DNA from: Chrysomallon squamiferum
Taxonomy: Eukaryota; Mollusca; Gastropoda; Neomphalida; Peltospiridae
Direction of reading: 5' to 3'
DNA length: 64,000 bases
Assembly: GCA_012295275.1 (NCBI GenBank)
Contig: CM022668.1
Span: forward strand, 1,139,637-1,203,636
Position 1 is the first letter of the stretch. Each line of letters begins with the position of its first letter. The notes below the pieces were generated by a model. It was not told the origin of the DNA, did not search any database, and saw nothing but the letters and a program-made list of their open reading frames with translations. Both the position numbers and the translations under genes were made by a program. Of the stretch, positions 539 to 64,000 are shown piece after piece.

Positions 539-787
539 ATAATTCTTTGTGATTCTGTTGAGCTCATCTGCCACTGCCTTGTCTTTAGTTAGCTGTTCCT
601 TCATACGTTTGCGAGCAGTCAGCTTAGCTTTCAGTTTGTCTCTTTGAGCCTCTCTCTGGTCTTCTCGCTGGCCATGAACTTTTTCCACTTCCTCTTTGAA
701 CTGTGACAGAATTCTATCACGCTCCACTGACTCAGCATCTTTGAGCATCTGTCTCACAAGTTCTTCTTGTTTTTGTTGAATAAGTTC
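539..787 (-). CDS. Exon x110: cytoplasmic coiled coil
   Basis: 249 nt, phase 0/0. It begins ELIQQKQEELVRQMLKD and continues with dense K/R/E/Q sequence (QREDQREAQRDKLKAKL) and no prolines, which is typical of coiled coil. It ends TKNY before the donor GTAGGTT. The acceptor tract is weak, but the join to x109 (RHQK then ELIQQ) keeps frame and heptad character. It is not the last exon, since no stop is reached. Confidence 0.82.
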
Positions 788-3700
788 CTTTTGAAGAATA
801 CAAAAAGTTTAATACTGGTTTTATATGATTTTTTGGAAAAAAGGATAAGAACAAAAATAGTGATTTTTTTCTTTTCAATCATTATTTTATTTATCATGCA
901 TCCTGATATCGTACTACATTAATATTTGTCATTCCCTTTAACATGCTGACCTCTGGACCATCAGACTAAACAGCATGACACTAACAAACAAAACACACAC
1001 AGGCAGGGTGCCTTGTTTGGTGCTGACAGATGTTTCCTACTTTCTAATGATATTCATTTCATTTTGAAAATTATTTCTACATTCAAAAAACATTTTGAAA
1101 ATCATACTCCATTTATAAAACTTAATCATCTCTGTTTCCTTTATAAAATTTGTAAATATAATGACACAAAACAAGGATGATAAGCTACTTACCTTCTGAT
1201 GACGTTTCCAGGCATGGAATAATGCCTGGTCTTCTTTTGTTCTGTCAGCTTCATTCTGTGTCTCCCAGGCCTTCAGAAGTTTGTTACGATCTTCTTCACT
1301 CAGATCCTGCAGTTCTTCCTCACTTGGTTTTGGTGGACTGTCTCTTCCCTTTCTGGTTTGTAGCTTAGCAAGGAAGTTCACAGCTTTATTGTTGAGATCT
1401 TGCTGACTTTTCTTGTTATCAGCAATTAATTCTTCTGTCTGAGGCTTAGATAAACCAAGATTTCTAATCTTGTCTTCAAAATCTGAATCTGTCTCTTCTT
1501 TGACAGTATCTTCTGTGACTGATGACTTACGTATTTCACCATCCATTTGATCCTGTTCTTGCTGAAGTCTCTTTAGATCTCTTACCAAATCCTCAAATTT
1601 CTTCAAGTCTTGAGAAGGAACAGCATCAGGAGAAATGTTTCTAGCATTGGCTTCCTGGACATGTCTTCGATGAAGATCTTTCTTCCTCTGACGGCGAAGA
1701 TCTGCTAGTTTCCTTCTCATGGCAGCCAGCTGCTGCTGTTTCTGTTTCTCCAGTGCTTCATCTAACTTCTGCATTCTTGCAGCATATTCTGTCAAAATTT
1801 TCTCTTTCTCCTCTTCTACTTTGGCATCTTTAAGTTTCTTCTCAACATCAGCAGTAATTTCACCTACCAGATCTTGTTTTTTGTTGTCATATTCACTCAG
1901 GATTTCATTAATGCTCTCTATTTCACCAGTTTTCAGTTCATTTTCTAGTTTGGCTGCTTCATAAGCTTGTTTCTCAAACAAATATTTTTGCTGTTCATTT
2001 TTGGCATCTTCTGTCATGGTACCAGTTTGCTGAAATTTAGCAGGATCACCAATGACAACAACTGAGTCTGTTGAAGCTGTTTCTGTCTTCTGATTCTCAC
2101 CACTCTGAACATGGGTGGTCTGCTGTACCTTAGGCTTTCCTGGAGTCTTTGATGCTTTGACCTCATCCTGACCATGATCTTGATCATCTCTTGTGCCAGT
2201 TTGTCCTGTAATGTTGATATTTGTGATGTTAGCTCCACTGCCTCCTCCAATATTAATAAGGTTTAGTAGTTCTGGCGAAAGATAGAATGGTCCACCTGCC
2301 TGCAACATTGCTATCAGCTGTTTTAACAATGGTATCAATTCAGAGTCACTACTATCAATAATGTTACCAAAACCATATGCTCCAGCAAGCTGAGCATCAT
2401 AATCCCCAGCTAACAGAGCACTTCTGGTCAGTACAACCTTGGCCTCAGCAGCACAAAGTTCGCACTTCTGTCTGGCATATTCCAGTGTAGAATGAGCATG
2501 GTCAAGAGTCTCCATTCTAGATGTAATCTGATCTCGAAGTTCATGTTGTAGTCGAGTCTTTGCCTGGTTGTAACGCTGCAGTGCAGAGTATTCAGCCTCA
2601 GGGTTCATTGCTCCTTCCAAGTCAGCCTTCCTGTCTTTGTAACGCTTTTCTTCCTCCTGCAGTTTGCTAAAGAATTTCCTCACAGTGTCTGTGTATTTGA
2701 CATGAGCAGAAATGTGACACTCCTCACAGTCTCTCTCCATGATGTCTGAGTCTGTAAGCACTGACACAACGTCTGGTGGAACCACTGCTGTGAAGTCTTG
2801 CTGTGCAGCTCCTCGCCTCTGCAGCTCTCTCTTGAAGTTTTCACTCAACTTCTGAGCATCTACATCTATTTCTTCCAGAATTTTCCTCAGAGAATGGCTG
2901 CTCAGAGAGTCTATGTCATACAACAGCTGGTGCGAGAGTTTGTGCTCTCTCAGAGTCACGTCACTTTCTTTCTGTCGTTGTCGTCGCCAGAACCCCTGAC
3001 GAGCAATTACTTCTTCTTCCAGCAGGGCAAGGGCACCAGGTGGAGCTTTTTGTTTGTGATGGCCACCTGTTGCCAAGGTTACAGGCACAGTCATCATATT
3101 TTCAGGATTCCGCCTGACACCAATCACAGGACTAAGATCACCTGTGACAGCATCAACAGCCTTTCTGCCTATCATGATGGGAACAAGTCCTGTAACAATA
3201 AAAATCATCATAATGTAACAAGTAAAATAACCTTTAACAGTGACTGAAAAAAAAACCTGTGTTTGTCATTTTGGCAATGTAAATTAACGATTTTGATTAT
3301 TAAGACAATGTTATCTTTTGTATTATTTAATTAGATATATATATATATTTTGCCTACATGAATATTAAATAAAGTGAAAAACATAAACTACCTTCTCCTC
3401 CAGGATCTTCCATTGTTCCTCCAAGTGGAATAACTCTCCCTGTGCTCTTTTCAACTTCCACACCAAGTACTGGTACTTGCTGTATGGAGCCTGCCGGGTC
3501 TGACATGTATGTTCCTATCAGTATTGGTAACAGCTGTCCTGTCTTAGAGAACTCATACATCCCTAAACAGAACACATAAACAGATATGTTAAACACTCAA
3601 ACCTCCTTTTTCTTACTGACTGACTGAATTAATTTTTATCCACAGCTCAGTATATTGTGAAGTTAACATTCATAGTAATATAACTCTCAGCAAAGCATTT

Positions 3701-6700
3701 GTTACAATCAGGACATTTTTTAAAACATTAACACTTTACCTGGTGAACCACCTGTAGTTGCTAGGAGACTGGAACGATCTTTTCTTCTAACCAAGTCCTG
3801 TCTTGTTCTTAACAGCTGTGCCTTCATCCGTGTTCGAGCCTGTGACAATTCCTTTATTGCTGCATCTAGAGTTGTCTCCTCATGTCTGATGTTTGGATTG
3901 TCACCTCGTTCACCTTGGTTTTCAATATTTGTAATTATTATTTAAAAATAATGAATGTAACAAAAGACAGCAACATAACATACATTAAAACTCTGTTAGC
4001 TTTGAAATGTCACTGGTTTAGTCAATTATCTGATAGTTCAGTAAAACATCTGACTGGCATTGATGATGACTAAAGAAGTTAAATTTGATTCTAAACACCT
4101 CATGTTATGAGTGTTTCACAAATAATATCTGGGTAATAAGATAAATGGTACCACATTATTGATTGCAATTTGCTACTTTTAATTAATATCATGATAAACT
4201 ATGACACATTAATGTTTCGCTAAGAATTTTCTACCTGCAGCATACAGAGCTTCCTTGTACTCTCTTACAGTTTCTAGCACTCGCGCTTCAATTGCCAAAA
4301 CATTGGCATCAAGTTGTGCTTGGTATCCTCCAGCAGATGGCAGCACAGTTACATCTCTAAGGTAACCACCATGGATACGAACATGTTTGCCACTTAGTGA
4401 GTCCACAAAAGTGTCACCAAGAATGATGGGAATATCTCCATGGTTACCAGGTTTGGTTCCACCAACAGGTACAACTGCTCCTAAAAGAAAATATAATAAC
4501 TTATTTAAATACTAAATTTTAAATTACTCTTTGGCTAATCTACGTGATTTGTTTTACAATGGTGTCAGAATTGTATGTATGCAAGTGTTCACTGCTGATC
4601 ACAAAGCTAGGTTCAACCATTCTTCATTCCACTGTTTTGCTTCTGTGTCTTTTATGTGATGGAAATAGATATTTTCTTGTTTTTGTTTTAATGTACCCAG
4701 ATATCTGTTAAACTGTATCTCAGTAGTTACATTTCTTTTCTATACACTAACTATAGATAATTTTATTAAGAAATAATTTTTAAGCTTTTCAAGACCCCAT
4801 TAATGAAATAAGGAAATATAATGCAACACCAAATGCTAAAAGAAATAAGCATTAATAATTATAATAAGTAAATAAACTGCCTTTAAATGTCAATATATGT
4901 AAATAATTAGAGTCTTGTTTAACTATCCATACATAATACTCTTTTATGGGAAAATATGCAATTACAAACTCTTAAAGGTAGTTTTTCAACTTTAAATTAA
5001 TTAGCAGCAAAGTTATGTAGATGGCCTAGAAATCTTAGGGTCTGAAGAAAAACAGAAAAGTAACCAGACAAGTGAATGCTTGCACAATCCCACAATTCAA
5101 TTTTATGTACACGGAGATCTCAGGAATGGATCATGAAACTTTGGTGTTGCTATGGTGGAAGTTTCATTAAGATCGGTTTCTCGTTTGTTTTGGTATGGTA
5201 ATTATGCAGAGTAATCTGTGTCATTAAATAACATATCTCAAAACTTGATTTTAATGTAATTATTTTGATTCTCCTTAATTTTTCATCAAATGGATACTTA
5301 TAGTTGAATATAAAAAAAAAAAAACAAAACAACAAATGTACCTGTATCTTGGTCCAGTGCTATAGAAAGTATTGGAACTGGTTGTCCACTGTTAGCGTCA
5401 ATCATGAATGAACCAATCTCAATGGGAACAGGAAGTCCGGTCACTGGGTCTGTGTGAATGCCACCTACAGGCAGCACTGTGCCTGTGGATGGATGGACAG
5501 TCACACCGAGTATTGGTACGTGAAGACCACAGACAGGGTCTGGGATCGGTGCACCATACCTCAGTTCCGACTTGGTCTCCAGTGGCTGCAGTTTTGTACT
5601 AACAGGGGACCCAGTCACTCGGTTTATTGGGTATGGAATGTAAGGGATGTAAGGATCTTCTGATCTTACAGTCTCACCTGGGAAAAATACAACAAATTAT
5701 TAAGTTTCTAGTTTTATTTCCAGGATAAACCTTTCAATTCTACAAGCTTTTTAAAATGAGATGCAACAAAAAGAAAAATGAACTATTTTATATCTATAAA
5801 TTTTCTGGTCTGCACAGAAATCAATAAAAGTTTTTTGAAGTAATTTTGTTATTTGGAAAAATATTTTTGCATTTAAATAATCCATTATTTTAAAAACATT
5901 ATTACATTTTTAAAATATTTATTCCACTTAAAAATTTTAAAACATTAGCCCTGCAGCACCTGTATACAATGAATCTTAATCCTTCTTAAATACCAGTGAA
6001 TAAAAATACATGGTTCTGTTTTACATCTACCTGTGGCAGAGTCCACTATGAAAACGAGTCTGGTTGTCACAGGATCATATGCAATGTTGCCATGCATTGG
6101 AAGAACGTGTCCGGTTTGTGGATGTACAAAGTAGTCACTGGGTATGGCAACTACACTGCCATCAGCTAACAACATCTGTGTGCCTGTTTTAGGCAGAATC
6201 AAACCAGTTTTAGGATCCATGCTGATAAGATTGGGCTTCATAATTTTCATATCTGAACCTAAAATATATCAAAAGAAATAAATGTTGATTATATTATTGC
6301 ATTATATTATTTAATTACTTATTTAATAGTAATTAAATATAGCTGATATTAATTATGTGTTCAATACTAAAATCTTCCCGACACAGTAAACTGGAATTTA
6401 TTCTTACAGATTGCCATACAGAAATGGAAGCAAAAACCTTTTGCATTAAGAAATGCATCTTAATTCTTTTATCTTTATCTTCATTTACACTAGATATGAT
6501 AAACTAAATATAGATGGACACGTTATAGAGAAATTTCTAACAACTTACTGATGAGATCAGTTCGAGTGAGAGGAGTATGAGTTCCTGGCTGCACAATCTG
6601 ACCTCCGGTGCCCTCTCCCAGGATTCCCCAGGCTCCAACTCTGCGACATTCATCTGAGACATCATTGGACATCTGGTTGATAAGTAGTGCAACTCGTCTA

Positions 6701-9700
6701 TCAATGTCATTGTGCATCTCATGGTCAAACTGTCCATCTTGCACCAACTGACCTCTCTGCATCTTGCTAGCGTGCTCCATCAGCAGCCTCTTAGCCTCCC
6801 GCAAACCTGCTTCGTATGTGACCTTTCAGTGTGAAACATCAAAACAGCTTGAATACACTGTGATGTACTTTTTAATAACTTTTTTACTAATGTTAAAAAT
6901 AAAAATCAAGAAATGTTTTATTTAACAACATATTAAATAAATTGCATTTTCTTTCACATTACCTTCTCAAAGGCAGCAAAGAAAACACACTCCAACAATA
7001 AAAAATAATTTATTTATAATTTGATTACTATAGAGTAAATAGAAAATTTATTGTCAAACAAAAGATTAAACAAATATTTTTAATATTATTTCTTATAAAG
7101 ATGAATTAAATAATAAATAAAGACTTTATTCATTCAAAATACAAACAAGGGAGGTAATTACCTGATGTTTTTTCCTTCCTGCCTCATCCTCATCCATTAA
7201 TTGTTCTTGTCGTTCTAGAATTGCCACAAACTGTCTTCCAACATCCTTCCTTCTCTCTAACTCTATCTCCAGTTCTTCCATCTTTCTTTCATAGGAAGCC
7301 ATATCCTCTTGTGTAGCCAATGCAGTCCTGCCACGCAGGTTCATCTTAGCAGCCCAAAGACCTTTGAGAGATTCTGTCTGATTGGCTATTTTCTGGTACA
7401 TCTGTTTCACCTCATCCTTCTGTTTGCCGATGGTCTGAGTGACGCTGCGGGACTGTTTGGAGAGTGTTTGATACAGCTGTTTCACACTGAATGCTTCCAG
7501 ATCTAACTGTCTGTCATAATCCCAGAACTCATCATTCTTCACTTCAACTGCAGAAGCTGCAACAATTATTACAGTATGTTTAGTTTTATATTATTAGCTA
7601 TATGATGAAAAACCTCATTTTCAATGATAAAAAAATATGTATTGATAAACATTTCTTACAGCAACCTCTAATAACTTGGTGTCATTTTCTTTTGTCTCAG
7701 TTTTTACTTTTTATATAATTAGCAGATCTGTTAAACATTAAGATTGATAAATTCATTTGTATACTTATTTATTATTTCTCATACAGATATAGATAAAACT
7801 GCCATTAAACAATATAAAAACTTGCCATCTAAGAGAGCAGCCTGTTTTTCAAACCCACTGCCAGACTCAGCTACTGTCAGCGCCTGCAGGTTTCTGTGGA
7901 ATTTTTTGACAGGATGGACTGTCGAACCCTTGCTAGCATAATCATCAAAGTTGAATCTTTGTGCCATGAAGCGGTAAAATGGGTACAGGTAGGATGTTTT
8001 AGTCCAGCCGTATTTTCTGAATAACACCTGCAAATATAAGTAATATGTTAGTACAGCCCTAGCAACCAAAATAAACCGCCTACAGATATCTTCCTATTTT
8101 TAGAGAAAAGAAAAACAAAACAAAATCAACAAAAAGTAAAATATCTACAACTTGTTGTAATTTCTTTCTATTAAAAGCCTTTAATTAACATTTTAACAAA
8201 AAGTTACAAGAATTGAATACTTCCAGAAAAACGATAAAGAAAACATTTAACAATTTCTGAAAGTTTTCACTAAGCATTGAACTGTTCTGTTTATGTGTCT
8301 CAATTGACTGGTGTGTCTAAAAAATGCAGTATTTGATTTGGAAATATTGTTATGTTTCAGGTTTCACAGTGATTTCATGAGTAAGATTACAAGTCAATTT
8401 ATGGGATCTCACATTATTTTAGTTGTATAATTCTGTATAATTAATTTTTACATCTATCAAAAGATAAAAAAAAAAGTTATACAAATAAATAAACTATCAA
8501 AAATTCACTAATGTATCATGTTCAGTTATAAAGTATGTTATTTAAAACAAAAAAACAAAAATTTTGTGTACCACAATCTAAATATTTAAATTTCACTTTA
8601 TTAAATGATAAATATTTCCAATAAAAACTGTTTTACTCCTATGCCATAAAATGACCTCCTGAACATAATTTCTTCTTTCAAGTGAAACTCACCAACAAGA
8701 GCAACATTAGAATCATGACCAGGAAACCTGCTGCTAACAGAATAAAAATAATCTGCCAGTCAGGAGTTTTCAGAATATCCTGGGAGACAGCAATGCCATT
8801 TTGTATGATGTAACGCGATGTTGTCGGGAAAAACGGTCCATCTTCTGTACATGTTGCATCCTGGGCCATCACTCTAACATACTAATAAATAAATTAATTA
8901 ATTAAATTAATTAATTAAACAAACAAATAACACAACTGTAAAAAAAGTAGCAAATCAGCATAAAGTAATTATAAATTAACAATTAAAAGGGATGGATACT
9001 TATATACTGTTTTCTCTATTAGTCATCAAAATTATTTTTTAATTTTTATTTCACAGTAAAAATAAAGCATAAAAAATCTATTACACAAATGATAAAATTT
9101 TTAAATTTAGCTATCTCACAGTAAATTGATAAAAAGTCTGTCTAAGCTTTTTTCTAACTTGTATCCAACTTGTGATTAAAAATTCATAGTATAACCATGA
9201 TTTTACAAGCTATTATTATTCAGTTATTCAATGACTAAGTCTAAACAGATTTTTGTTTACCATTTTGCGGTTGATGTTGCTGCTGAGGTAGAACACATAA
9301 ACTCCAGGGTCTTTGAACCTGTATGCAAACAATGTTGTTGTTGTGGAAACCTGAGACTGTGCTTCCATTAGCTCTCGGAAACCACCATAATCAAACTTGG
9401 TGTTGGTGTTGTACAGGTTGTTTCTGTGTTAAACAAGTAGATGTACAATAAGGTCTCAAAGTTTTTAATTATCATACTTTTATTATTTACTTTATTCATC
9501 ATATAAAAAAAACTGAATGTATGATTTTTAAGACTAAATTTAAATTTTTTTCTGACTTGAAATACTAATTTCTTTTCTTTTTTTTATGTTACTAACCTGT
9601 CACATTCTGGATTGTTATTACATTACTGAGCTGTCATGTTTTGGATAGTTGTTACATGACTAACCTCTCATATATTGGATAATTATTATCATTAACCTGT

Positions 9701-11262
9701 CATATGTTGCTATATTACTAACCAGTCATATTTTGGATAGTTGTTACATGACTAACCTGTCATATATTGGATAGTTGTTATATTACTAACCTGTCATATA
9801 TTGGATAGTTATTGTTATCCACATAGAAGAAAATTATCTGGCCATAGTTCAGACAAACAACAGGATTAGCTATTCCACTGAAGAGAGAACTATTTACTGT
9901 AGATGTTGCAAGAAGCCGTCGTCGACCCAGGTATGTTGAGCTGTAGTCTGTGTCCACAGTGATGTTGCCAGAAATGTTTCCCTTCACATGGAAGTCCAGC
10001 CAGTCAACAAGCTGTTCAATGTTTGGTTCATACACACCAAGGAACTTTGAACCTCCACATTCCACAATTCCTATTGGGTACTCAGTGACTCCATATTTCT
10101 CACACTGGTCATCTGTGATTGATTCTCTGGTGTTGACACCTTTCAGAAGTTTTGAACTGGGAAACTGTTTCTGAGAACACAAATTTCAAAAATATAAATT
10201 AATCTTTTTGAAATTCAACATTATTTTAATTTGTCACATGACACTTTACAACTGATAGGCCACAGATTGAATAGTAGTGTTTATGTCAATAAATTACTTT
10301 ATTTATCCCAACACTAAAATTACATCAGATGTTAGAGATAAGGGAAACTAAAGCAATGTTAATTAAAATAGGAAATCATTCCACAGAAACATCAATGATA
10401 ACTAAGCTGCATCCTGAAGTTGAACATTAATAAAAACACATTTGTGAACTGAGATACTCACTCTGACAGAGTTGTCTGTATTTCTTATCTGTATGTAAGG
10501 CTCCAGTGGCTTGGCAGGACAGACAAAGGTCAGTCGGTCACGCTGTTTCTTTCGACATTCCAAACTACAAACAACCTCAAGGTCATCTGCTTTGCAGAGA
10601 CACAGACCAAGACTTCCATCATATCCTTTATAGTCATTGTCACATACCTGTATCATACATATAGCATCCTTTATAGTCATTGTCACATACCTGTATTGCA
10701 CATATAACATGGTTTATAGTCATTGTCAAATACAACAATAATGATTGATAACAGAAATTTATGATGGAAATAAAAACATTTTCACAAAATATAGAGGAAA
10801 GAAATGATATTAAAATATTTTGGTTATGTCCTCCAGCATTACTGTCAACCATCCCATACAGAATTAAAGCAAAACTGGTTAGTCACTGTCAAGTTTTATA
10901 CATGCTCATCAATGATGTCAATGTATATTATTAAATTTTCTGGATGGATGGATGAACAAATGAATGAGTGAATAATACCTGTTCAGAACAATAGGTCACC
11001 CACTGGTCAGCACTCATACACTGACCATTCTGATTACGATATGACCCTTCAGTACAAAGGTCATAGACCTGCTTAATACAGTCCTGCTGGTTTCCAAATT
11101 CCAAGTATCCTGCTTTACATGGACAGTTCTTGTCACTGGGCTGTAATCAAACACTTTTTTTTCAAATTCAAATTCTTTGTTTCTATAATATTTACTTATT
11201 TATTTATTTGATAAAAATCTTGTAGTATTATTTACTTGATTTATTTATTTTTTATATACAAG

Positions 11263-11310
<48 letters not shown>

Positions 11311-14300
11311 TGTATGTATGTATGTATGTATGTATGTCTGTCTGTATGTATGTATGTATGTGTCTGTATGTATGTATGTTTGTATGGGATGGATGGATGA
11401 ATGTCTGTATGTATGTATGTATGTCTGTCTGTCTGTATGTATGTATGGATGGATGTATGTATGTATGTATGTATGGATGTTTGTATGTTTGTATGTATGT
11501 ATGTATGTATGGATGGATGGATATCTGTATGTATGTATGTATGGATGTATGGATCTATACCTATAGCAATGTTAGTATTAAAGTATGACTATTTACTTGG
11601 AAGTCTCTGCCTGCTCCAGTGCAGTCACATGTTATAGATCCTATTTTTGGTTGCTTTGCTTCACTTCCACACACAAAGCATGCTTTCTGGGCCTCCAGAT
11701 GATTGAAGTGGTCAACGGCACATGGATTGCAATCAGACAGACTTCCCATTCCATTTGAAGGATTGTATGTACCCTGTGGACATGGAGTAGCCTGAGAACT
11801 GTTTTTAGGGCAGTAGTAGCCTAAAAAATTATATAGATCATTATAAACAAAATTACATATATACCCAAACTGGGAAAAACAGTGTTTTGAAAACATGACA
11901 ATAAACCATCTGTGACTTTTAAACAAAATCTGTATGTAAAATAACTAATTAAAACAAGTGGTATAATAAGAGACATTTTAAAATAATACCGTTTTTGTTA
12001 AGAAAAGAATTTTACCTGGTGGACATAAGTAAGAGTTTGTAGCATAGAAGCCAGCAGACCAAACTAATGAACTGTCGTTGGCAACAGGATTGTCAGTTGT
12101 GGCCTTCGCAAGGCAGACAACTCCAGCACGACATGGCTCACACTGAGTTCGGTTGGGGTCAGCACCAAATGTTCCTGGCAGACATGGTTCACATGTGTCA
12201 TTGAAAGTTCTTCTGAGAGAGCCATCATATTCCTTGTAGCCAAGCGGACACTTCTTGGGTTCAATAGCTCCTGAAGTGAAGACAAGAAGAGAAACATACT
12301 GAATTAATGGGAGATTATACTTCTAAATGAATCCACAGTCAGTATCACACCTTCTAATTCAGGCAATATGTTTGTTAAATTATCTTTGGAATAGCAGAGA
12401 ATAAAAAAAATTCTGAAATCTATATTCAATTTTAATTTAAATTTAAAAAACATTTAAAAATTAAGTCTTTCAAGAATCTGATTAATGTATTCAAAGCTCA
12501 TACCTGCATCAGTATTATTACAGTCAGTAACAGCACCACAGTAATGACCAACTGGACATGGTATGGGAAAACTGGAGCCCACTGGGCAATAATAACCTGG
12601 TGGACATGGCTTCTGATCCATTGACATATTGCAGTAATATCCTAGAGTGATAAAACATTGACATATTGCAGTAATATCCTAGAGTGATAAAACATTGACA
12701 TATTGCAGTAATATCCTAGAGTGATAAAACATTGACATATTGCAGTAATATCCTAGAGTGATAAAACATTGACATATTGCAGTAATATCCTAGAGTGATA
12801 AAACATTGACATATTGCAGTAATATCCTAGAGTGATAAAACATTGACATATTGCAGTAATATCCTAGAGTGATAAAACATTGAAATATTGCAAGAGTATC
12901 AAAGGGACAAAAAACATAAAAATGTTGCAAAAGCATCCATGAGAAAAACATTGACATGATACAGTGACATTTAAGTCAGGATACCATAACATAATTATGT
13001 TTATTAACACGTACAAATATGGTAAAATTTAATACAAAAGAATGATTATTTCACCAAAATCACACCCTCATTTGCATGAACCCTGCTCCTTATATGTCAC
13101 AAAATACAAATTATAATTGTTCATTTTGAAAAATGCAATAAATTCACCGTGAAATAAAAATAGTTTAGTAAAGCAATAAACTTTATTTTTAATCTTAAAC
13201 TTTGATGACCAAAGTTGAATTTCAGTAAAATTGTAACTGTAATAAAATTAAACAAAAGTGAATAAAAGATAGAAACCTGCTTGGCAGACTGTCTGGTTTT
13301 GTGATCCAGGGATACAGACAAAGCCCTCATCACACTGGATTCCAGAGTAAGTCATGTTTGTGTCAGGGCAGTACTTTCCAGCAGGACAGAGATGGCAGTC
13401 ACTAACACTACCAGCAGCTATTGTATCTCTGTAACAAATGCACAGTTGATGTAAACAGCAAATTTAAAACAAAGATTTGCATAAAAAATCTGTATTTTAC
13501 TAGATCTATACTAATTTCACTAGATCTATACTAATTTCACTAGATCTATACTAATTTCACTAGATCAATACTAATTTCACTAGATCTATACTAATTTCAC
13601 TAGATCTATACTAATTTCACTAGATCTATACTAATTTCACTAGATCAATACTAATTTCACTAGATCTATACTAATTTCACTAGATCTATAATTTCACTAG
13701 ATCTATACTAATTACACTATTCTCAAATACACAAAGTTATATTTTATTACCTAAATCATACATTTATCATCACCATAGTTACTAATGAAGCTTCTGTCTG
13801 TATTATTCTGTGTTTATCTGCAGTTTAAATGCACTTCTAACATAGCAGAAAACACTAAAATCAGCCTGAGTTATAACAATTTCTTAATTTTCAATTGCTC
13901 AGCCAAAACTTCTAAATGTCTTATTATTTGTTTCTTATGAAATGAACCTGTAAGTTCCAACTGGACATGGCTCTGGTGCATCTGTGGCATTTGTACAGTA
14001 GAAGCCAGGACTGCAGGGGTTAATAGTGTAATTTGCAATTCCCTCCGTGTTACACCAGTATCCTGGCGGGCAGGGCTTGCACCAGCTGATGTCCTTACCA
14101 CCCTGTTCATCATTGTACGTTTTAACTGGACATGGCTGAAAACAAATAGTTTGTGAACAACACATATTAATGGAACAATCTTTTATGTAATGAACAGTTT
14201 TAAATTTTTTATTAAATGAGGCTTATGTAACTCGAATGTGCTTTACTTGTCTATTCATGTTGGTTTTATTTTTTTTAAATGTCTATGGATAACATGATGT

Positions 14301-16429: not shown

Positions 16430-16469
<40 letters not shown>

Positions 16470-23495: not shown

Positions 23496-23552
<57 letters not shown>

Positions 23553-24451: not shown

Positions 24452-24499
<48 letters not shown>

Positions 24500-35781: not shown

Positions 35782-35818
<37 letters not shown>

Positions 35819-41800: not shown

Positions 41801-42721
41801 TCCCTGTACCTAAACATACAACACAAATATTGTTATTGTTTATAGAAGAAAACACAAAAATAATCTGAACAATAAATTACCAGGAATAATAAATAAAACT
41901 GATAACAGTATATATAGCCAAATAAAAACTGTAATTACCTTGTGGACAGTAGTATCCAGCTGGACAAGGCTGTGCATTTAATGTTGAGTTTTCTGGTTGG
42001 ACAGGAAGACAGTAGAAACCTTGAGGACAGGGTGAGCACTCTGCTGCTCCAGTGTAGTTAGTGTATGTGCCATCAGGACATTCCCTGTAGATGGCACTAC
42101 CATTTGGACAGTGGAGACCACGAGGACATATGTACTGAGATGGGTTTGGTTGTGACATGTTTTCTGGACAGTAGTAACCTCCCCAACATGTCTCAATCAC
42201 TCCTGTCATTCCTATGATTAGTAATAATAAACATTACAGGTAATAACTGGGTTACCAAGTGAATCAGTGCAGAACAAGTGAATCAATAAACAAAACTGAT
42301 ATTCAAACCAAAAACAATGTATGAAAAACAATTAACTGAATAATAAAATAAAAATAATTTTAAAAACAAATTTTAATTTTTTTTTTTTTAAATTAGAAAG
42401 TTTATGCATTATTTGTGGCCATTTGTTTATATGACAGTAAGAAATGTTGTGTTTAAAGAGGCTACCTGGATCAGGACAGAAATATCCTCCTGAACATGGA
42501 CTGCACTGACTGACATCAACAAGGCCTGTAGCATTGGAGAATGTCCCAGCTGGACACTGCTGTGGTTCTGTGCTCTCTGCTGGACAGTAAGAACCCACTG
42601 GACATAGGATGAATTTGTCATTGTCTGCTCTAGATGGGCAGTAGTAACCTGGCAAAGTGAAAAACATTTGATTAGAATATATACATCTTTAATACAAATC
42701 ATATTATAATGATACTAATTT

Positions 42722-42754
<33 letters not shown>

Positions 42755-48700: not shown

Positions 48701-51700
48701 AAAACGTGCCTGAAAGAAGAAATGTTTTATTGTTTTCACATAATGTATGCTTAATGACTGTTGCTTTAAGGAGAGGAGAAACCCACCGATCCCAGACTGT
48801 CATGTTTCAGTTATCTGCAATGAATCTTTTATGTGCACCTAAACAGGAAAACACAGGATAATTGATAAAGTAGGCACTGGCTGATTTTGAAATAAACAAA
48901 ACACAGGAAAGAAAAACAACTTTCTGAAAGGATTTTGCCTGTCCATAAGGAGACAAAAACATTTCTCTGTGTCAGATACACTTTAAAAATGATTATGAAA
49001 TATAAAAGAAACAGTCAAAATTAGGTAACAAGTAGGGTATTTTGTATCCTTTTAATCAAAGAAATGAAACTATAATCTTAACTTATATATAAAGATAAGA
49101 TATAATTGTTATTTCAACTGGTGTGCCTTGCTGATCATTTTTACCATAACATTTCATTATATAGGTGTGTATGTGTGTGTGTGTGTGTGTGTGAGTGTGT
49201 GTGTAAATTAACAGTTAATTAACCAGGTGAAAGATAACAAACCTTCCGTGAGACATGTATATATAAATTTGCTACATCTGAATTTAAAGAATTAACATTT
49301 ACAGTGACTAATATAAGACCTCCATTTTCAATGCCTGGTTATTTTAAAAAAAACAAATTAATCATAGGGAAGTGAAAATGTAAACAGAATTCAGATTTCT
49401 CACATGTAAGTCATATTTTAAATTCTATGTCATTTGCAACTTACCAACTGGACAGAAAACTGGTGATGCACTTTGAGCTACACAGAATGAGCCTTCGGGA
49501 CAGTTGAACTCTGTTGCACTTGATGACCTTTCTGGACAGTAGTAGCCAGCAGTGCATGGTCCACTCACAGATGTCATGTTTAGTTCACCACAGTAGAAAC
49601 CTAAAAATTAGATTTTTTAAAGCCGAATTAGTTTTTGTGGAAAAATCAAATATATACAATTCTAACTATTTTACAGAACTGGGAGCATGTTATTTGTAGC
49701 TTGTTTGGTGTTTGATACATACTAGCTGAATTGCGTTAGTTGTTTTTGTACTTGTTGCTTTTGGCTAGTACATTATTAAATTTAAATTCATATTATTAAT
49801 TTTATAATCATTTTATATATCTATATCCTTAATCTGTGAAAAGGATTTACATATAATTACAAAAGCATTCAAATAAAATTTTACTTAAACACAAAACAAG
49901 GTTTTACCTGCTGTACAGTTAAGACATTCTTCCACAGCTGTCAGTCTAACGTTACTTGAGTAGGTACCCAGTGGACACTTCTGTGGCTCAGAACTTTGTT
50001 GTGGACAGTAGTGACCCTCTGGACATTCATTTGCATCAACACCTTGGGTTGGGGTGCCAGATTTAGCACCTTGGCGACAGTAAAACCTAAATTTTAAAAA
50101 CACATTTTGCCTTTTTATCATTTTTAAGACAAACATAAATAGGATTTTAGTATTTCAATAACAATAAGATACTCAAACAGTGAATATATATTTCGTAATA
50201 AGAATGAAGATTAAAGGTTTTTGCTTTTGTAACATTACCAATGAAAAGAATCAAATTTTGACAATTACCCTGCTTCACAGATCTTAGTAAACTCAGTCTG
50301 AGCCTCCTGGTCACAGTAGTATCCACCTGGACAGGGCAGACAGTCTGTTACTGCCTGGAGACCAGACATGTTGCTATAGGTACCAGATGGACATCGGTTT
50401 TCAACAGAGTACTTGGTTCCAGGTGGACAATAATAACCTGAAATTAATTTTCAAAACTTCATTTGAGATAACAATAAAGACATCTGGAAAAAATAGTACA
50501 ATCTATAGACAGACAGCAAGACAGACAGCAAGACAGACAGCAAGACAGACAGACAGTCAGACAGTCAGACAGTCAGACAGATAAACAGATACACAGACAG
50601 ATATAAAACATTATGAAAAAATTATTCTATATCTTTGAAATGTAAATATTAAAGATAATGACAACAATAATCTCTTGAAACTGTATGTTTAATTTTACTT
50701 GATCTGATACTATTTGAAATTTAACTGTAAAACTAATGTTGACAATACAACACCTGGTGGACACACTGTGTTGTTGTAAAGTACAACCGGACTCAGAGTT
50801 TTGTCACAGTAAAATCCAGCTGGACACATCTTGCACGTCCCTTGTCCGACTTCATCCTGGTATGTTCCACTTTCACATCGGACAGGCTCCTCACTGCCTG
50901 ATGGACAACTGTGGCCTGTAATATACAAATTAAATAGCCCTGATTTAACACCAAATATGTTTAAACCAGTATAAAGTAGTGGCTTTGACAACCTGTTATT
51001 AAAACTTACAACTTATTACAGCCTATCAGAAAGTATTTAAAAAGAAAGTTACCTTGAGGACAGGTGTACTCAGAAGGGTTGGAAACTTTCATCCCAGCAG
51101 GACAGTAAAACCCAGCATCACAGAGACCGGAGGGATAGGCATTACCATAGCCAGCACAGAATGAGCGGGGAGGGCAAGAGAGACAGTCAGACTGAGTGCG
51201 AGACCCGGTCTGGTTCAGATACGTTCCTGGTGGACAGTAGGATCCATTAGCACTTCCTGGTGGGCAGAACTGTCCCATTGAGCATACATCACCTGATAAA
51301 AATAAGTTTATATATAATTATAGATGTACAATTATATGGTATATGTCTCACATAATAAATTGCTATCATAGAATTTCTCACTGAAAGACACGATACATCA
51401 GTTATTAGATGTTATACAGAGATAAATGTGTAAGTACGTTACATAGAAATAGTGATACATCTGTTTGAAGGAAGAGATACAGCAACAGCTAATGATTTAT
51501 GAACAAAGCGAGTTGTAAATTGAATCTAATAATAAATGAAACCAGTTCAGGTAAAAACTCAGAGGGATAATAAAAGTAAGAATTATTGCTGCAGAATAGT
51601 TTAGACCTGTTCAATGTAATCAATATCTGTTTTAACACTTTTTTAATTATTTCAGTCTTGTGATCTGAGAGTTTAAACTTTTTTCATTTTCCAGTCTGCA

Positions 51701-54700
51701 GTAAGTAGTAAGTCATACCATATGACTGGCCAACTGGAGTTGCAGTGGGTGAACCAGACTCACAGTAGTAACCTTCACTGCAGCTTCCTGTCGGTGCGGC
51801 AAGTTCTAGAAACAGTAATAAAACAAAATTGTTAACATGAAAGAGATAATTCTAACATGAAATACTGCTTACAAGTATTTGTTAGATCAAAGTATACTAT
51901 TTTAAAATTACGTAACTTCAAAAACTCTTAATTTCTTAATGAAAACAATCATAATAAGTGAATGAATATATTCACCAACATACATACATTCATGCAGAAA
52001 TGTTGATTTTTTTTTTGTTTCTGTAATGTCACAAAAGCTTATAGTTTTGGAGGTCCACTGAAAAGAATTGATCAAGTCATCTTTGAAATCTCAGTTCTGA
52101 TTTCTGAAGGAAAAATCTCACTGAATATATTTAAAACATTTTTTTTTTTTTTAAATTCTGATAAATTAATATCAGAGCTAAATTCAAAACTATAAATACT
52201 AACCTGCATCCTGACAGAACATTCCTGGTGTACATGGTATCTGAGTTGGGCTGCCTTGAGGACAGAAGTATCCTGCCTGACATTGGCCTCCTTTTGTAGG
52301 ATCTGCTGGTTTAGCTGCGTCAGATCCTGATTTACAGTACCAGCCAGGATCACACTGGTCTGTGGGGCTGCTGAGTCCTTGTGAACTGCAGTACATTCTG
52401 AAAACAACACGTTAACATATTATAGCTAGCACAGTACAGACGTGTCTGCATCCAAACACTAACCATCAAAAGGACCAAAGCATTAGTAACAGTAAACAGT
52501 ATTTCATTTATTCTTTCTGGTAAAATAAACTAATTAATCTAAAAAAAGTATAACTTCTGATCACTTATATAAATATGTTATCTAAACTTATATTATATAC
52601 TATACACACATATTTTACTAAAATAGACATTAATAAAAATTTTAAATATTTTAATACAAATCCTAGTGAGATATTTTGCAAATATTTGAGAAAAATAATT
52701 CTGAATTCTTTTAATGGAAACGTAGTGAAATGATGATAATTTGTGATCTTCATAAAGAGTGATAATACAAACCCTGGAGAACATGGCAAACAGTCGTCAG
52801 CTTTCGATGCTCCTGTAAAGTTGAGGTAAGTTCCTGCTAAGCAGGGTGTCTGAGTTCCACTTTGATACTTGGCTCCACACCAGTAGCCAGTGGGACAGGG
52901 GATGGGGTCACTGGTGTTTACAGGACAGTAACTACCGGCTGGACAGTTGAGGCAGCTGACTGCTCTCGTGTTGTTGACGTACGTCCCAGCTGGACAAGCT
53001 TGTGGAGCTGTTGATCCTTCTGCACACTTGTAACCTAAAATAAGTTTTTTATTTAGCTTTAAAAACAGCAAAACTCAGACATTTCACACAATAGTAATAC
53101 TAAGTGTGTCTTATGACTGTACAAATAATATGAATGTATATATCCCATAAACACTGATTTAGTTTGTTCAGTGTATCTGTGACTGATATGTCTCTGACAC
53201 CTAAATATTCTCTGATGTCTCTGTGATTGTATAACTAAGCTCAGCAGACGGTTTTCTGTTCAGGATACTGAGTGACTGCATTCTATGTGAGCATTTTTCT
53301 ATAATTTTATAATTTCAACTAAAAAGAGCAAGGACTGACAAACCTGTTGGACATTCATCTCCGTATGTCTTGTTAACTGGTGATGGTTCTGGGGAGCCCT
53401 TAGTGCAGTAGTACCCAGCTGTACACAAACCTGCAGGTTCTGTTGCATTCAGATATGGACAGTACTTTCCTCCATCACACAACAGACAGTCTGATTCCTT
53501 TGTATTCTCTGCTGAGTAACTGAAAAGTTCAGTGTTAAGATTAAAATCTCTTATCATTAGAGGAGCAATAAGTATATCTATGGTAAATTATCTAAATTCA
53601 TTTTGTATGCAGCTTTATTATTACTATTATTACTATTATTACTTGTCTTTCTTTTTCCTTTTTCTTTCTATTTATTTATTATTAGTTGTATTTTTTAAAT
53701 ATTTTTTTTATTAAATCAACCTTTACTAATGACAAACAATAATATTTTGGGGATACATAATAAGGAATGTTTTCCTTTTGTATTGACATCATTTTATATT
53801 AACAGAAAGGTTAAATAATATATATATTGTTGAGAAACAATATCAACCCAGAGAAAGAAGTAAATACTCATATAAACACTGACAGCTTTGAACAGTGTCC
53901 AGAGTGTACATTCCTGTCATAAAACTTATTAGAACTAAATGACAGTTTACAATCACGGTCATTTGTCTGAAGCCAAAGAAACACCAATGGTTGCTGTGTA
54001 TACAACTTACTCGAGTCAGTCAGAAACCCCCTTTCTCATCTCTCAGAGCACAGAAGCAGGATTACAACAGTGATAAAGAATTTGGCTAACATAATCTATA
54101 CATAACTAATTTCTGCTTTTTGCTAATGGCTTGCAGAGAATTTTAAAACATATTGTGGCTTAATTATTTTTTACACACCCATAAGTTCCAGGAGGGCACG
54201 GTGTGGGTGTTACGCTTCCTTCAGGGCAGTAGAATCCCTTCAGACATTTCCCATGCAGTGCATGATCTATTTCATTAGGTACTGGAGTTGTGGCTTGGGC
54301 CTTTGCCCAGTGACCAGCTGCAATTTGCCCAGTGACATTTGCACTGCCTGAAACAAAGTGAATAGTAATGAATGAACTGAATGAATAAATATTGTCATTA
54401 TAAAATATCTAGTATTTTTAAAACAACAAGAGGATGTTAGAATACAGCTGTGAATAAACTGGACAAATACATTTTGTCTGTATGAATATCTGGTAGTTAT
54501 TTTAAAATTAAAATAATATAACAAGATGAAAGAGTATAATTAGAAATATTTCTAATATATGAATCACAACAAGTTAATGAATGCCAACATCTCAGGATCA
54601 GCAAATCAGTTTTAAATCAATGGTCACCTTCAATACAGTAGAATCCTGGCTCACAGTCACTGCACTCTGCTGCAGATTTCAACCCTTCTCGGGCCCCATA

Positions 54701-55653
54701 CGTTCCTGCAGGGCAGGGCATCCCACTGGTCACTGGGATTGCAACAGTGCTGGCAACACAGTACAGACCTAAACAGAAACACACACATAGTACTCCTCAT
54801 TCTAACACAAAATTCTCTACTATTTCAGTGTGTCTCTCTCCACTGAACTAAATCTGTATGTTACAAAGAAATAAATTATAATACAATTTATTAAAAAAAA
54901 ATTTAAGGTATTTTTAAAATAAATTTTGAAGACTGTTTCTATCAAATTCCAGTGAAAAATAACGTTAAAAATATCCATTAAAAATCTTTTAGAAATAATA
55001 TGCCTAATGTAAATAAATGCATTTTCAATTAGATAAAAAAGAAATGATAAACATTTGTAATATTGTTACACCTGTAAGACAAACAGCTGGTGTTTATTAT
55101 CACCTGATATATCAAATCTCTAATTACCTTTAATATAAAGCATTTGTTATCACCTGTAGAATCAAATGTTTGTTATTACCTATTGGATTTGTTGTTTACA
55201 TTATAACTTCTAGGACAGGAATGTCATTATCTCTAGGTTAAGGTGTTTCTTTTGTTTACTGGTTCTTACCTCTAGAACAAGGACTTGGGGCTGTCCCAGG
55301 AGAACACAGGAATCCTGCAGGACACAGAACACATTCCGACATACCAGTGTTGTTGGCATGGTAACCTATAGAACATTGTTTAGGAGTGTCAGATCCAGCT
55401 GGACAGTAGTGATGTAGTGGACAAATTGATCCAGTTGAATTAGAACAGGTGGGTCCAGTTTCATTAACTGGATCAGGAATCCAGGCCCCACCTATACAGT
55501 AGTAACCTGGTGAACAGTCACCTAGAGTATATGGAAAAATAACGTAGTATCAAAGAGAAAACATAAAAGGAAAAATATAATGTGTAACTTGATTTCTAAA
55601 ACATCTTCTATGTTTCTTCTTATTCTCCTTTGTGTCACACACTCACAAACTCA

Positions 55654-55701
<48 letters not shown>

Positions 55702-58700
55702 CACACACATGCACCACACAACACACAAACACACAACACAACACACACGCACGCACCACACACACACACACACACACACACACCAAGACAGAGATGTCAG
55801 AAACATACCTTCAAAAATACTAACTAACATGATAATATTGACAAATAAACTATTTAATAAATATTTACATATATTTATATATTTAACAAGAAAATGCAGA
55901 ATTAGATAAACTTGTTTGGTACCTGTAGGTTCTGTGAGTGCAGTTCCATTGCAGTATTTTCCTGGATCACAAGGTTTACATGCTGTTTCCTCAGACGCTC
56001 CACCCATATCTGGGTTATATGTTCCCCTGGGGCAGGGAATCATGTATGATGTTCCTTGTGGACAGTAGTAACCAGCATGACAACGGTCTCCATAGGTGAT
56101 CAGAGTTTTGTTACCAGAAGTGTCATTGTTGTACACTGGGTCATCATTAAGAGCTCCTTCATAACAAATGTGCCCAGCTTTGCACGGCCCGGTGGGTTCA
56201 GTCGCACCCCGGTTCTGACAGTAGTAGCCTTTCTCACACACAACACAGTCATCAATACTTGTCCGGTGAGTCCTGAAAATATCAGTTTATTCTCTGTCAA
56301 CCATATTAAGCTGTTTAATGAATATAATAAACCATGGTATAGATTACACAGCAACAACCAATAATTTCTAAAGCTTAGTTTCCAACTTACGCATTAGAGT
56401 AGGTTCCTGGTGGGCAATCTTGGGGTACCACACTGCCATTTCCACAGTACTGACCAGCTGGACATGGAACTTTGTCAGTCATTGTCTTGTTTTCACAGTA
56501 GTAGCCCGGGTCACATACAAAGCAATATGAATAGGCGTGATACGGCATGTATGTACCAATCTCACACTCTCGCTGAGCTCGAGAACCATTCAAAGAGTAA
56601 TGTCCTGAAAATATGAGTAAAACAGTTTCATAAAAACACTGCATGACAAACAAGGTTTTAAAATAACTAAACATGCATGTGTACTGTAAATGTTTGTAAG
56701 TTAAACATGCTACATCTAATCCAAATTCTAAAGGCACACCTATTTTCCTAGACCCAGTCCAACAGAACCAAAAAATAATTAATTTATAAAGTAATATATT
56801 AAACATTTTCATAAAAGTCAGACTCATCAACAGGCATTTAAAACAATTCAGCCCATTGTAACATTTTAAATAATAATAACACATACCTGGTTCTGTTGCA
56901 TTCTGGGTAGGAATTTTTGCTCCCCCTGTACAGAAATAGCCTCCCCAGCATTGTCCTGTTGGGGCCCCACCTGCCACAGATGAGCAGTAGTACCCAGGGT
57001 CACATTCGAAACAGTCGTATGTGTTAACAGCACCTGTCACATTGCTGTAAGTACCCATAGGACACGGCTTTGCAACCCACGAACCTTAAAACATTAGTGA
57101 AATGTTCAGTTTAAATCACTCTTAACATCTACTGTATTTTATAAAAAGAAATGAAAAGTTAAGATGGAAAATTTCATGAAAACAATCAGGAATAATTATT
57201 AGTTTACAGTTATAAAAATAAATAATGTTTGGACAAGTCAGCTTCTTCAGTTCCTGTACATTGTAAAAAAATAAATTGAAGGTGAGACTAAGATAGAATT
57301 TCTTTATACTGCTAAAACAATCAAAGACACATATTAACATGAATAAATATTAATATATGCATTGTAATATTTAAACTGATGTTTATATTCAGTATATTAA
57401 CCTAAGATAATTACAACAAATAATCAGAATTAATAACAACAAGACACATACATATATTAAATTCGCTGAATCTGTCAACATCTCTATCTGTATCCTTGTG
57501 CATATACACCTGTGCACTAAAACACAAATAGTTTATTACTACTACACGCCCACCTAAAGTACAGTAGCCACCAGCTGGGCAGACTTCTCCAGTGACTCCA
57601 TCAATGGGACTGGACGATGAGGATCCATTGTAACACAGGTAACCAGGATCACATGGAGCACGGGGCTGGAGCAAACCAGGAGCGTCACAGTACCAACCAG
57701 GATCACAGAGTTTACAGTCCTCCATCTTCTCCAGTTCTGAACACAAACAGGTAAGTAAATAAATAAATAAATAAATATAAATGTTGATGTTGATGGAAAA
57801 AGATGAAGTAAAAATAATGTTGAAGTGTATTTTGTTACAACTTACTTTGGCTCTCTCCATATCTTCCCACTGGACAAGGCTCTGGTTTAGCAGAGCCCTG
57901 GGTGCAGTAGTAACCCCTGGGGCAGTCTGTGGGTTGTGATGACGCCTGCTCACAGTATGACCCAGCAGGACAAACCTTACACGATGTCACGTTTGGTGTA
58001 GCTAACACGTCTGTGTATGTTCCTTCAGGGCATGGCTCCTACATTACATAGAGACAATGTGAAACTTTACAATCTTATCTTAACAAAATATGTATTTCTC
58101 CACTGTTCAATATCTTGATGATTAATTTTGGTATATTTTTATTAACTGTACTAATAATCATGATATGATCATTTCAATAATAATAATAATAATAATAGCA
58201 ATGAAAAAAAAGACAAAAATGACAATAACAACAGCAAAACAACAACAATTTTTAAAAAGATGTTCAGTAGAAAATGAGAGTATTATAAATAATTATCATC
58301 AAACAATTAACGTGAGTTGTGGCTGTGTTGTAAGATATTAATCTTTCTTGCATCTTTGTACACACCAATTCATTACCTGTTTGTTTGTACACCTCAGTTC
58401 ATTACCTGTTTGTACACCTCAGTTCATTACCTGTTTGTTTGCACACCTCAGTTCATTACCTGTTTGTTTGTACACCTCAGTTCATTACCTGTTTGTTTGT
58501 ACATGTCAATTCATTACCTGTTTGTTTGTACATGTCAGTTCATTACCTGTTTGTTTGTACATGTCAATTCATTACCTGTTTGTTTGTACATGTCAATTCA
58601 TTACCTGTTTGTTTGTACATGTCAGTTCATTACCTGTTTGTTTGTACATGTCAGTTCATTACCTGTTTGTTTGTACATGTCAGTTCATTACCTGTTTGTT

Positions 58701-61700
58701 TGTACATGTCAATTCATTACCTGTTTGTTTGTACATGTCAATTCATTACCTGTTTGTTTCCTGAGCCTCCTATCTGTGGAGGGTTGTTTCCGTATGGATT
58801 TGTGAATGGGCTGGGACAATAATATCCTTGAATACAGGCTCCTGTTGTAGAACTTGATCCTTCCAGACAGTAGTATCCTGCAGGACAAGGAGCGCAGTCT
58901 GTGACTGCAGCAGCTCCTACAGTTTCCCTGATTGTACCAACTGGACATTTTATCTCTTCCACGGTCGCTGTACACAAACAAAAACAAAAACAATTATTGT
59001 ATTTTTTTAAAGAAATTAAAAATAAATGTTTTGTGGAATATGGAGAAGAAGATAGTCACTGGTAAGAAGTGTGTGATAAGCAACAGGATCAATCTTCAGG
59101 TTACTCACTGAACCTTTTCTAATTACAGGAAGGGTTCCATGAATAAAATGATCAAGCTGTAATGTATGCCTGCCTCTCAGAGGAAAGATACATAAAACCC
59201 TCCCCCAGTTAATCAAATAAGTGGTGGTGGCAGGTTTCTGCTCTCTTTTCATTTCTGTATTAAAGTTGTATTTGCCACCTGGTACTTGTTTGATATTAAA
59301 ATGTGTGTCATTGAACATTCATTCATTCAGGTGTCAGATAATGGTCTCACCTGATGGGCAGTATTTGCCTGCAGTGCAGTCTGTTGCCTCGGAGACATCG
59401 GTCAGTCCACCTTTACAGTACTTGCCTGCTGGACACTGTTTTGTAGTCAACATGGCCTCTTCAGAAGTTGTGTCATTATCACAGTAATATCTGAATAACA
59501 AATAACCTGGATTTTAATTATCACAGTAATATCTAAATAACAATATTAACCTGGATTTTAATTATCACAGTAATATCTGAATAACAAACAGTAACCTGGA
59601 TTTTAATTATCACAGTAATATCTGAATAACAAACAGTAACCTGGATTTTAATTATCACAGTAATATCTGAATAACAAACCGTAACCTGGATTTTAATTAT
59701 CACAGTAATATCTGAATAACAAACAGTAACCTGGATTTTAATTATCACAGTAATATCTGAATAACAAACAGTAACCTGGATTTTAATTATCACAGTAATA
59801 TCTGAATAACAAACCGTAACCTGGATTTTAATTATCACAGTAATATCTGAATAACAAACCGTAACCTGGATTTTAATTATCACAGTAATATCTGAATAAC
59901 AAACCGTAACCTGGATTTTAATTATCACAGTAATATCTGAATAACAAACCGTAACCTGGATTTTAATTATCACAGTAATATCTGAATAACTAACCGTTAC
60001 CTGGATTTTAATTATCACAGTAATATCTGAATAACAAACCGTAACCTGGATTTTAATTATCACTGTAATATCTGAATAACAAACCGTAACCTGGATTTTA
60101 ATTATCACAGTAATATCTGAATAACAAACAGTAACCTGGATTTTAATTATCACAGTAATATCTGAATAACAAACAGTAACCTGGATTTTAATTATCACAG
60201 TAATATCTGAATAACAAACAGTAACCTGGATTTTAATTATCACAGTAATATCTGAATAACAAACATTAACCTGGATTTTAATTATCACAGTAATATCTGA
60301 ATAACAAAATTAACCTGGATTTTAATTAACATTGTTAATGATCTCAAATCAGACAAATCATTGATCATACAAATAAAAAACATTTTCATCTCTGCAATGT
60401 ACAAAAATCTTATTCAGTGAAGAGAACTGGTATTTTGCAAATTCACATCTCAGCTGATTAAATAAATAAAACAAGTACTAAATTTGTTAATATTAACATA
60501 GAGGATATCCATCTTTGATCATAAATTAAATTTTTTTTTTATCATCAATTACCCATTGAACAATGACAAAATATTTTGTGTACAGTTTAACATAGCTACC
60601 CAATTTTACAGCTTTTGCAGTCAAACTCTCCTGCTTTTGAATAGAAGCCCTTTCCACAGGCAACCGGGGCGATTGTTTGTTCAGCACACTTTGATCCTCC
60701 TGGACATGGCAAACAGTCCGATTCTCTCTTTGCTGCAGAACCATCTAAAAAACAAGTATAACCTTTAACAGTATTTTAAATAAATAATTTGAAATAATTA
60801 TTTTTTTTACAGAATTTTAATTTTTTTTTTTAATGTTCTTACAAATACAAAAACATTTTTCTATTCAGATCCTTAACAAATTACAAAATGATCCATATTT
60901 TGCATGAGTTTACCCCCATGGCTGTGATACTGAGTTCCTTTACAAATGGAAAAGGATTTTTCTCACAGCATATTCACAAAATGTTTCTGAAAAAGATCCA
61001 GCTGTTGCAGGAATATTTTTGGCATAACTGTTACCTGTCACATGGAATATTGTTATCACATATCTGTAACAAAATAATGTCCTGTTGAAATAAAATATAT
61101 CATTTTTTTAATAGAAAAACACACACAATATATATATTTTAATTAAAAGAACATTTATTAGTCTTATATTACTAAACAGCAGATCAAACAATAAATTCAC
61201 TTTGTAAAAAATAAAAACTGTTAAGTAAAAATAATCAGAAGATATGTTTAATGTATCTACTGATTACAAAGACACTGTAATAAACAAGCAACAGTTAAAG
61301 ATTTTACTGTGTGGTAATGAAAACAGAAAATTCTCCAATGCTTATTCAGTACAGATTTATGACTTTGTCTTAACTGATTGATATCTTCTGCCAATATGAA
61401 CAGTATTTTGTTCACAGTGTGATGATTACTTCTTGTTTACCTTGAGTGCAGTTGAGACAGTCGCTAGTTGCTGACTTCCCGTCATGTGGGTTGTAGGTTC
61501 CATTCTCACAGCCGTGGTCAGTGTAGTACGCAGTTTTCAGTGGACAGAAGTAGCCAGGCACACAGAGACCGTCAGGGGCCGACTGACCACCTGCAAATAA
61601 CAACACAAGTTTTATAAACAGGTTATTTTAAATATATTAAAAGCAGGATAAAAAGAAAATTTAGTATTTCTGTGATAAAGCCAGTATAAAGCTGATTTTT

Positions 61701-64000: not shown

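Follow-up and report, generated by a model that had tools for sequence, protein, structure and literature searches.

Does a window of 64,000 nucleotides from the gastropod Chrysomallon squamiferum (assembly GCA_012295275.1, contig CM022668.1, positions 1,139,637 to 1,203,636) hold one giant gene, and if so, what kind of protein does it encode? An initial annotation of this window, made from the letters alone, had proposed a single gene of at least 110 exons across positions 539 to 64,000, encoding a transmembrane protein of more than 8,190 residues. We find on the minus strand a chain of exons that forms one gene of about 89 kb, running from 81,952 to -6,845 in window coordinates; the proposed span lies on the gene, but the gene continues past both window ends. 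The final model comprises 139 exons and 9,852 residues (~1,053 kDa), is phase-consistent and has no internal stop codon. Of its exons, 111 overlap the window and 110 lie wholly inside it, the very number proposed. The window holds 24,339 coding bases, plus 21 after a change of acceptor, equivalent to about 8,120 residues, which is somewhat below the proposed length; the whole protein exceeds it. We class the product, hereafter the giant protein, as a long modular single-pass surface protein. New here, beyond the initial annotation, are both gene ends, the super-repeats, a tentatively cupredoxin-like domain, the C-terminal domain and a second gene.

Evidence for a single gene

Across a 224 kb region (the window with 160 kb of flanks, out of a searched genome of 404.6 Mb in 22 contigs), a simple module motif is found at 252 sites on the minus strand and at 4 on the plus strand. 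Within the window, a module profile trained on the giant protein itself detects 167 minus-strand stretches and none on the plus strand, versus 1, 0, and 0 in three shuffled windows. Phase 1 introns, which are common for extracellular modules, account for 85 of 113 in the ectodomain.

When an earlier model of the giant gene, whose residue numbers are used for these alignments, was compared by blastp with 20 homologues, independently predicted proteins from an oyster, sea slugs, a mussel, an annelid, and a brachiopod aligned collinearly at 51-62% identity. The best single stretches reach 57% over 6,538 columns in Saccostrea LOC134264959 (6,488 amino acids [aa]; residues 3446-9842), 62% over 5,123 columns in Elysia (EGW08_011985; residues 2381-7460), 53% over 4,231 columns in Owenia, and 51% in Lingula LOC106159584 (4,186 columns), Dreissena (3,506 columns), and Plakobranchus (2,551 columns). 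This collinearity, independent of our own gene model, is the stronger support, and it extends from residue ~2,380 onward. That several neighbouring genes were wrongly joined, as DNAJC10 was in our first model, we consider very improbable. The gene finder did make that fusion, and residues 1 to ~2,380 lack support from any homologue, but in each of Saccostrea, Elysia, Owenia, Lingula, and Dreissena one predicted protein spans the parts, and the upstream signal-peptide-like exon matches in phase. Cross-species collinearity is strong evidence here and not proof, the homologues being gene models too.

Cys modules and super-repeats of the ectodomain

After the putative signal peptide, the ectodomain comprises 7,469 residues with 173 N-glycosylation sequons and 786 Cys residues (the last counted before the final small change to the model). 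By our own module profile, 146 module stretches extend across residues 32-7109, some 7,080 residues, which agrees with the earlier claim of an ectodomain of over 6,500 residues made almost wholly of Cys modules. The description of these modules as ephrin-receptor-like fits the first 300 residues, where PF07699 (Ephrin_rec_like) scores 62.8 bits against a cut-off of 23.1, but not one 590-residue sample of modules from the window, which stays below the cut-off at 21.9 bits. Among relatives, PF07699 passes in Owenia (26.8 bits) and gives no match in Lingula, and none of its genome matches falls within the window among the 150 scored of 354 candidates. The N-terminus thus resembles Eph receptors in its Ephrin_rec_like modules; the giant protein differs from these receptor tyrosine kinases by its array of 146 module stretches and by the lack of a kinase, as far as four scanned pieces of its cytoplasmic part show. 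It is also unlike ELAPOR1, which has a chain of ~800 residues in its PDB entry. Elsewhere in the genome, strong PF07699 modules are found in large clusters of other genes on contigs C15, C8, C4 (~2.0 Mb), and C3.

From residue 2195 to residue 6262, the array consists of six tandem super-repeats (B1 to B6) of 669, 662, 685, 679, 692, and 680 residues; each carries 71-73 Cys, and their mutual identity is 45-49%. In a tree of 15 super-repeat blocks, grouping follows position and not species, with B2 to B6 each forming a clade at 100/100. Both oyster and Elysia blocks are included in the B4, B5, and B6 clades, Elysia and the first oyster block in that of B2, and Elysia only in that of B3; B1 has no partner. 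Lengths in Chrysomallon, oyster, and Elysia are 679/679/679 residues for B4, 692/691/691 for B5, and 680/680/680 for B6, and B3 has 685 residues in Chrysomallon versus 686 in Elysia. The agreement of three super-repeats to within one residue among sea slug, oyster, and Chrysomallon hints at selection on length or register. In the 1,750-1,830 shared residues before residue 7,500, the relatives from Owenia and Lingula and a further one (P0018) show no gap longer than 25 residues. If the compaction of the Chlamydomonas mastigoneme protein MST1 holds here, each super-repeat would measure ~26 nm.

Membrane-near domain and transmembrane helix

The single transmembrane segment, WQIIFILLAAGFLVMILMLLLLVLF, is located at residue 7,493, as the initial annotation had it with one helix. 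Its exon was skipped by our first models, and we shifted the acceptor by 21 bases because relatives have MYVRVM there. Next to it lies a membrane-near domain that in the structure model appears weakly cupredoxin-like, with plastocyanin, amicyanin, and pseudoazurin as possible closest known systems. Type-1 copper proteins use a ligand set of one conserved Cys and two His. The giant protein differs from them, since none of the 34 invariant columns in the alignment of this domain (A2) is a His, leaving no conserved copper site.

An RRRLL linker splits the domain, and in the model, strands of the cupredoxin-like fold flank this linker on both sides. RRRLL is present in 5 of the 10 rows of A2 and RRLL in 2 more; both fish rows are without RRRLL. 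No R-x-K/R-R site is found in the giant protein.

Cytoplasmic part

The cytoplasmic part comprises ~2,335 residues and includes a DPxTG region, a coiled-coil-like stretch of 860 residues (8571-9430; called from composition only), and a conserved C-terminal domain. The proposed order of modules, transmembrane helix, DPxTG repeats, and coiled coil holds in our model and is kept by relatives from other phyla. Just inside the membrane, segments with SSKGST and DEFWDYD hold many of the 29 columns that are invariant over 14 relatives. For the gar relative, a structure model (mean predicted local distance difference test score [pLDDT], 59.4; predicted template modelling score, 0.46) shows the DPxTG region at residues 771-1090 as beta strands plus a long pair of helices, with block pLDDT of 67-90. 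In the C-terminal domain, 68 of 190 positions are invariant across 8 aligned sequences, taken from the 11 that hold it.

Database searches identify little in this part. Up to E 1, the C-terminal domain finds nothing in Pfam or the PDB and the DPxTG piece nothing in Pfam; the long tail exon has a sub-threshold Pfam match only (0.8), and its sole match in the genome is itself. NCBIfam returns nothing for three relatives. No kinase or other signalling family is detected in the four cytoplasmic pieces scanned, which cover the transmembrane region and the tail minus about residues 8,835-9,430.

Relatives and a second giant gene

We file the gene as an orthologue of Saccostrea LOC134264959. The proteins of Saccostrea, Elysia, Owenia, Lingula, Dreissena, and Plakobranchus share the order of parts of the giant protein, but their models are shorter or partial. 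A search of other animals, which the initial annotation had called for in invertebrate genomes, yields collinear relatives across phyla, along with shorter ones from a bryozoan, a sea cucumber, fishes, and a caecilian. Read by eye, the gar (1,154 aa) and whitefish (1,007 aa) relatives have a signal-peptide-like start, one or two modules, the membrane-near domain, a transmembrane segment, and the DPxTG region. If these fish models are complete, the array was lost in fish or gained in invertebrates. No mammal, bird, insect, or nematode appears among the sources named for the 20 homologues, which does not demonstrate absence, since candidates were chosen by length and shared words, the best 7,995 were scored, and proteins of ~1,163-1,539 aa fell between searches.

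None of the 20 homologues bears an experimentally based name, no characterised orthologue was found, and literature searches returned no published work on the family, in line with the earlier remark that no named protein has this order of parts. Database names are uncharacterized, hypothetical, or unnamed, with five of the 20 lacking any name; two UniRef names are domain based (TNFR-Cys for P0007, ephrin type A/B receptor-like for P0015), and others mislead ("cytadherence high molecular weight protein 2" and "myosin-2 heavy chain-like"). Because gene sets split or misname it, comparative work can easily miss this family.

A second giant gene, with its parts in the order seen in the first but hardly any DPxTG motifs, lies on the plus strand at C5:7,895,001-7,955,000. 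Its model stops short of the 5' end and so far counts 92 exons and no fewer than 7,458 residues; the sea cucumber relative also matches this locus, at C5:7,934,762-7,936,880. Its product has 5,786 residues before the transmembrane segment, an RRRLL motif, one transmembrane segment, and a tail of ~1,670 residues that includes a coiled-coil-like stretch and the same C-terminal domain as in the first gene. By one motif pattern, its tail holds 1 DPxTG-like site versus 4 in the first. The two giants align at 25% identity over 1,349 columns in their tails and 37% over 5,696 columns in their ectodomains, and the second gene could be a partner of the first.

Surface filament, receptor, or ciliary hair

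We give an even chance to the view that the giant protein is a single-pass plasma-membrane protein of ~1.05 MDa forming an anchored filament that connects with a coiled-coil scaffold inside the cell. In this view, stacked disulphide-type modules would build a stiff filament extending ~0.27 micrometre outward, and the cytoplasmic part would link it to the scaffold. At the cell surface, the whole protein would serve as a mechanical tether or an antenna whose length is fixed, similar in action to other long surface filaments but not one of them by descent. Judged from its sequence, the filament or sensor role put forward in the initial annotation is plausible. Several observations weigh against a filament. 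Fish relatives seem, by eye, to hold one or two modules only, so that a long filament would not be an ancestral or universal need. Super-repeat B2 has 662 residues in Chrysomallon and 690 in Elysia, a difference of 28, and the oyster model is without B3, a single 724-residue gap that is either a real loss or a gene-model fault; length is therefore not kept everywhere. The module fold is also present in EphB2, CaSR, and thyroglobulin, which form no filaments, and attachment to the cytoskeleton is a guess from coiled-coil composition.

A possible but clearly less probable account is that of a very large adhesion or ligand receptor, in which the modules bind partners and the DPxTG region and C-terminal domain signal inside. 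The RRRLL linker would then be cut and the outer chain stay bound to a membrane stub, comparable to Notch or GPS-type receptors. Such a cut is consistent with the predicted strands on both sides of the linker and with the recurrence of RRRLL or RRLL in A2 and of RRRLL in the second giant, but both fish rows of A2 are without RRRLL and the giant protein without an R-x-K/R-R site. Also in favour of a receptor, conservation is strongest at and below the membrane, and fish keep the membrane-near part with hardly any array; against signalling stands the lack of any signalling family in the cytoplasmic pieces scanned. That the protein forms a hair of animal cilia or sperm flagella, working like Chlamydomonas mastigonemes, is unlikely. 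The best module matches include the mastigoneme entries 8wa2 and 9b4h, but the top Foldseek match has an E of 0.019, with none reaching 0.001, and the module fold is common to nonciliary proteins. MST1, which the account in PMC11015965 describes in part as Ig-like domains plus a poly-proline helix, differs in both respects, and we see no sign of descent for the giant protein.

Returning to the filament, a broader proposal is tentative and would probably not hold in full: that these proteins are undescribed bilaterian megadalton surface rulers, built of ~680-residue super-repeats of which several are kept to the residue between gastropods and oyster. They would carry a copper-free cupredoxin-like collar cut in its linker and a new DPxTG beta scaffold and C-terminal domain; the two giants would perhaps be paired, and fish would have kept collar and scaffold with hardly any array. 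If true, this would be among the larger membrane proteins predicted in animals, from a family that spans molluscs, annelid, brachiopod, bryozoan, echinoderm, and fishes and in which Pfam leaves three conserved parts unrecognised here. The super-repeats allow a direct test of protein length as an extracellular ruler in animals.

Gene model and features of the locus

Features within the window are collected in Table 1. Exons come from our own gene finder, trained on the 224 kb region, with some then fixed by hand and three exon regions given a score bonus in the run behind most exons. GT/GC and AG ends are no evidence for these exons because the finder permits no other donors or acceptors. Signal-peptide, transmembrane, and coiled-coil calls were made by hydrophobicity, composition, and eye. 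A first run with cheap splice sites was discarded for over-splitting everything, a single-coding-model run lost parts of the tail, and a three-class model was discarded for fusing DNAJC10 to the 5' end and placing three doubtful exons at the 3' end.

Table 1. Positions of the giant gene and its parts in window coordinates
Feature	Position	Strand	Basis
Giant gene, window part (exons 17/18 to 128 of 139)	539..64000	-	gene model; collinear homologues
Cys-rich module array within window (continues upstream to exon at 80,250)	11597..64000	-	module profile; homologues
Six tandem super-repeats B1-B6 (approximate ends)	18824..50825	-	repeat comparison
Super-repeat starts, B1 to B6	near 50,825, 43,821, 39,367, 34,425, 29,217, 23,347	-	
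Last modules and membrane-near Cys-rich segment	10462..11820	-	conserved in relatives
Membrane-near domain, cupredoxin-like in model, split by RRRLL linker	8860..10170	-	alignment A2, model, fold comparison
Membrane-near domain exons	10,170-9,791, 9,423-9,261, start of 8,881-8,693	-	
Exon with single transmembrane helix	8693..8881	-	gene model; aligned in relatives
Cytoplasmic helical part with SSKGST and DEFWDYD segments	6603..8027	-	invariant columns in relatives
DPxTG region (low end approximate)	3100..6258	-	motifs; beta-rich model of gar relative
Start of coiled-coil-like stretch (continues outside window)	539..2050	-	composition only

At the 5' end, the replacement exons placed by hand are a signal-peptide-like exon at 81,952-81,883 (MEAKFHKLLILLTICWSYPRYTA; donor score 7.2), whose end phase fits the exon at 80,250, and one 13-base exon. 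An N-terminal signal peptide is likely from this sequence. Three similar tandem copies of the 13-base exon-like CTATGTCCATCTG lie on the minus strand at ~75,700-75,950, outside the window, and are perhaps duplicated micro-exons. Because the 13-base exon sits in this local triplication, the exact 5' splicing is uncertain.

DNAJC10 (ERdj5) is a separate gene directly upstream on the same minus strand (~98,100-90,600, outside the window), with an NDEL end; the RPNDEL terminus followed by a stop and a structure match to DNAJC10 (1.7e-88) rule it out as the 5' part of the giant gene. Farther out, on the minus strand at ~131,700-192,100, the finder joins pieces bearing an unusual-looking repeat, W.I...DG.V..G.G.IP; these are probably several genes, which by eye we take to be astacin-, VWA-, and glycosyltransferase-like. 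Within the window, the open frame 45285-45803 (+) matches PF13358 (DDE_3 transposase; 49.3 bits, cut-off 28.6) and sits in a 1,996-base intron between the exon ending at 46,148 and that starting at 44,151, presumably as a Tc1/mariner-type element. Finally, five tandem arrays (10623-10733, 12619-12892, 14949-15029, 58355-58759, and 59475-60328) overlap predicted exon edges by ~10-25 bases and look as if they were minisatellites grown from splice junctions of the giant gene.
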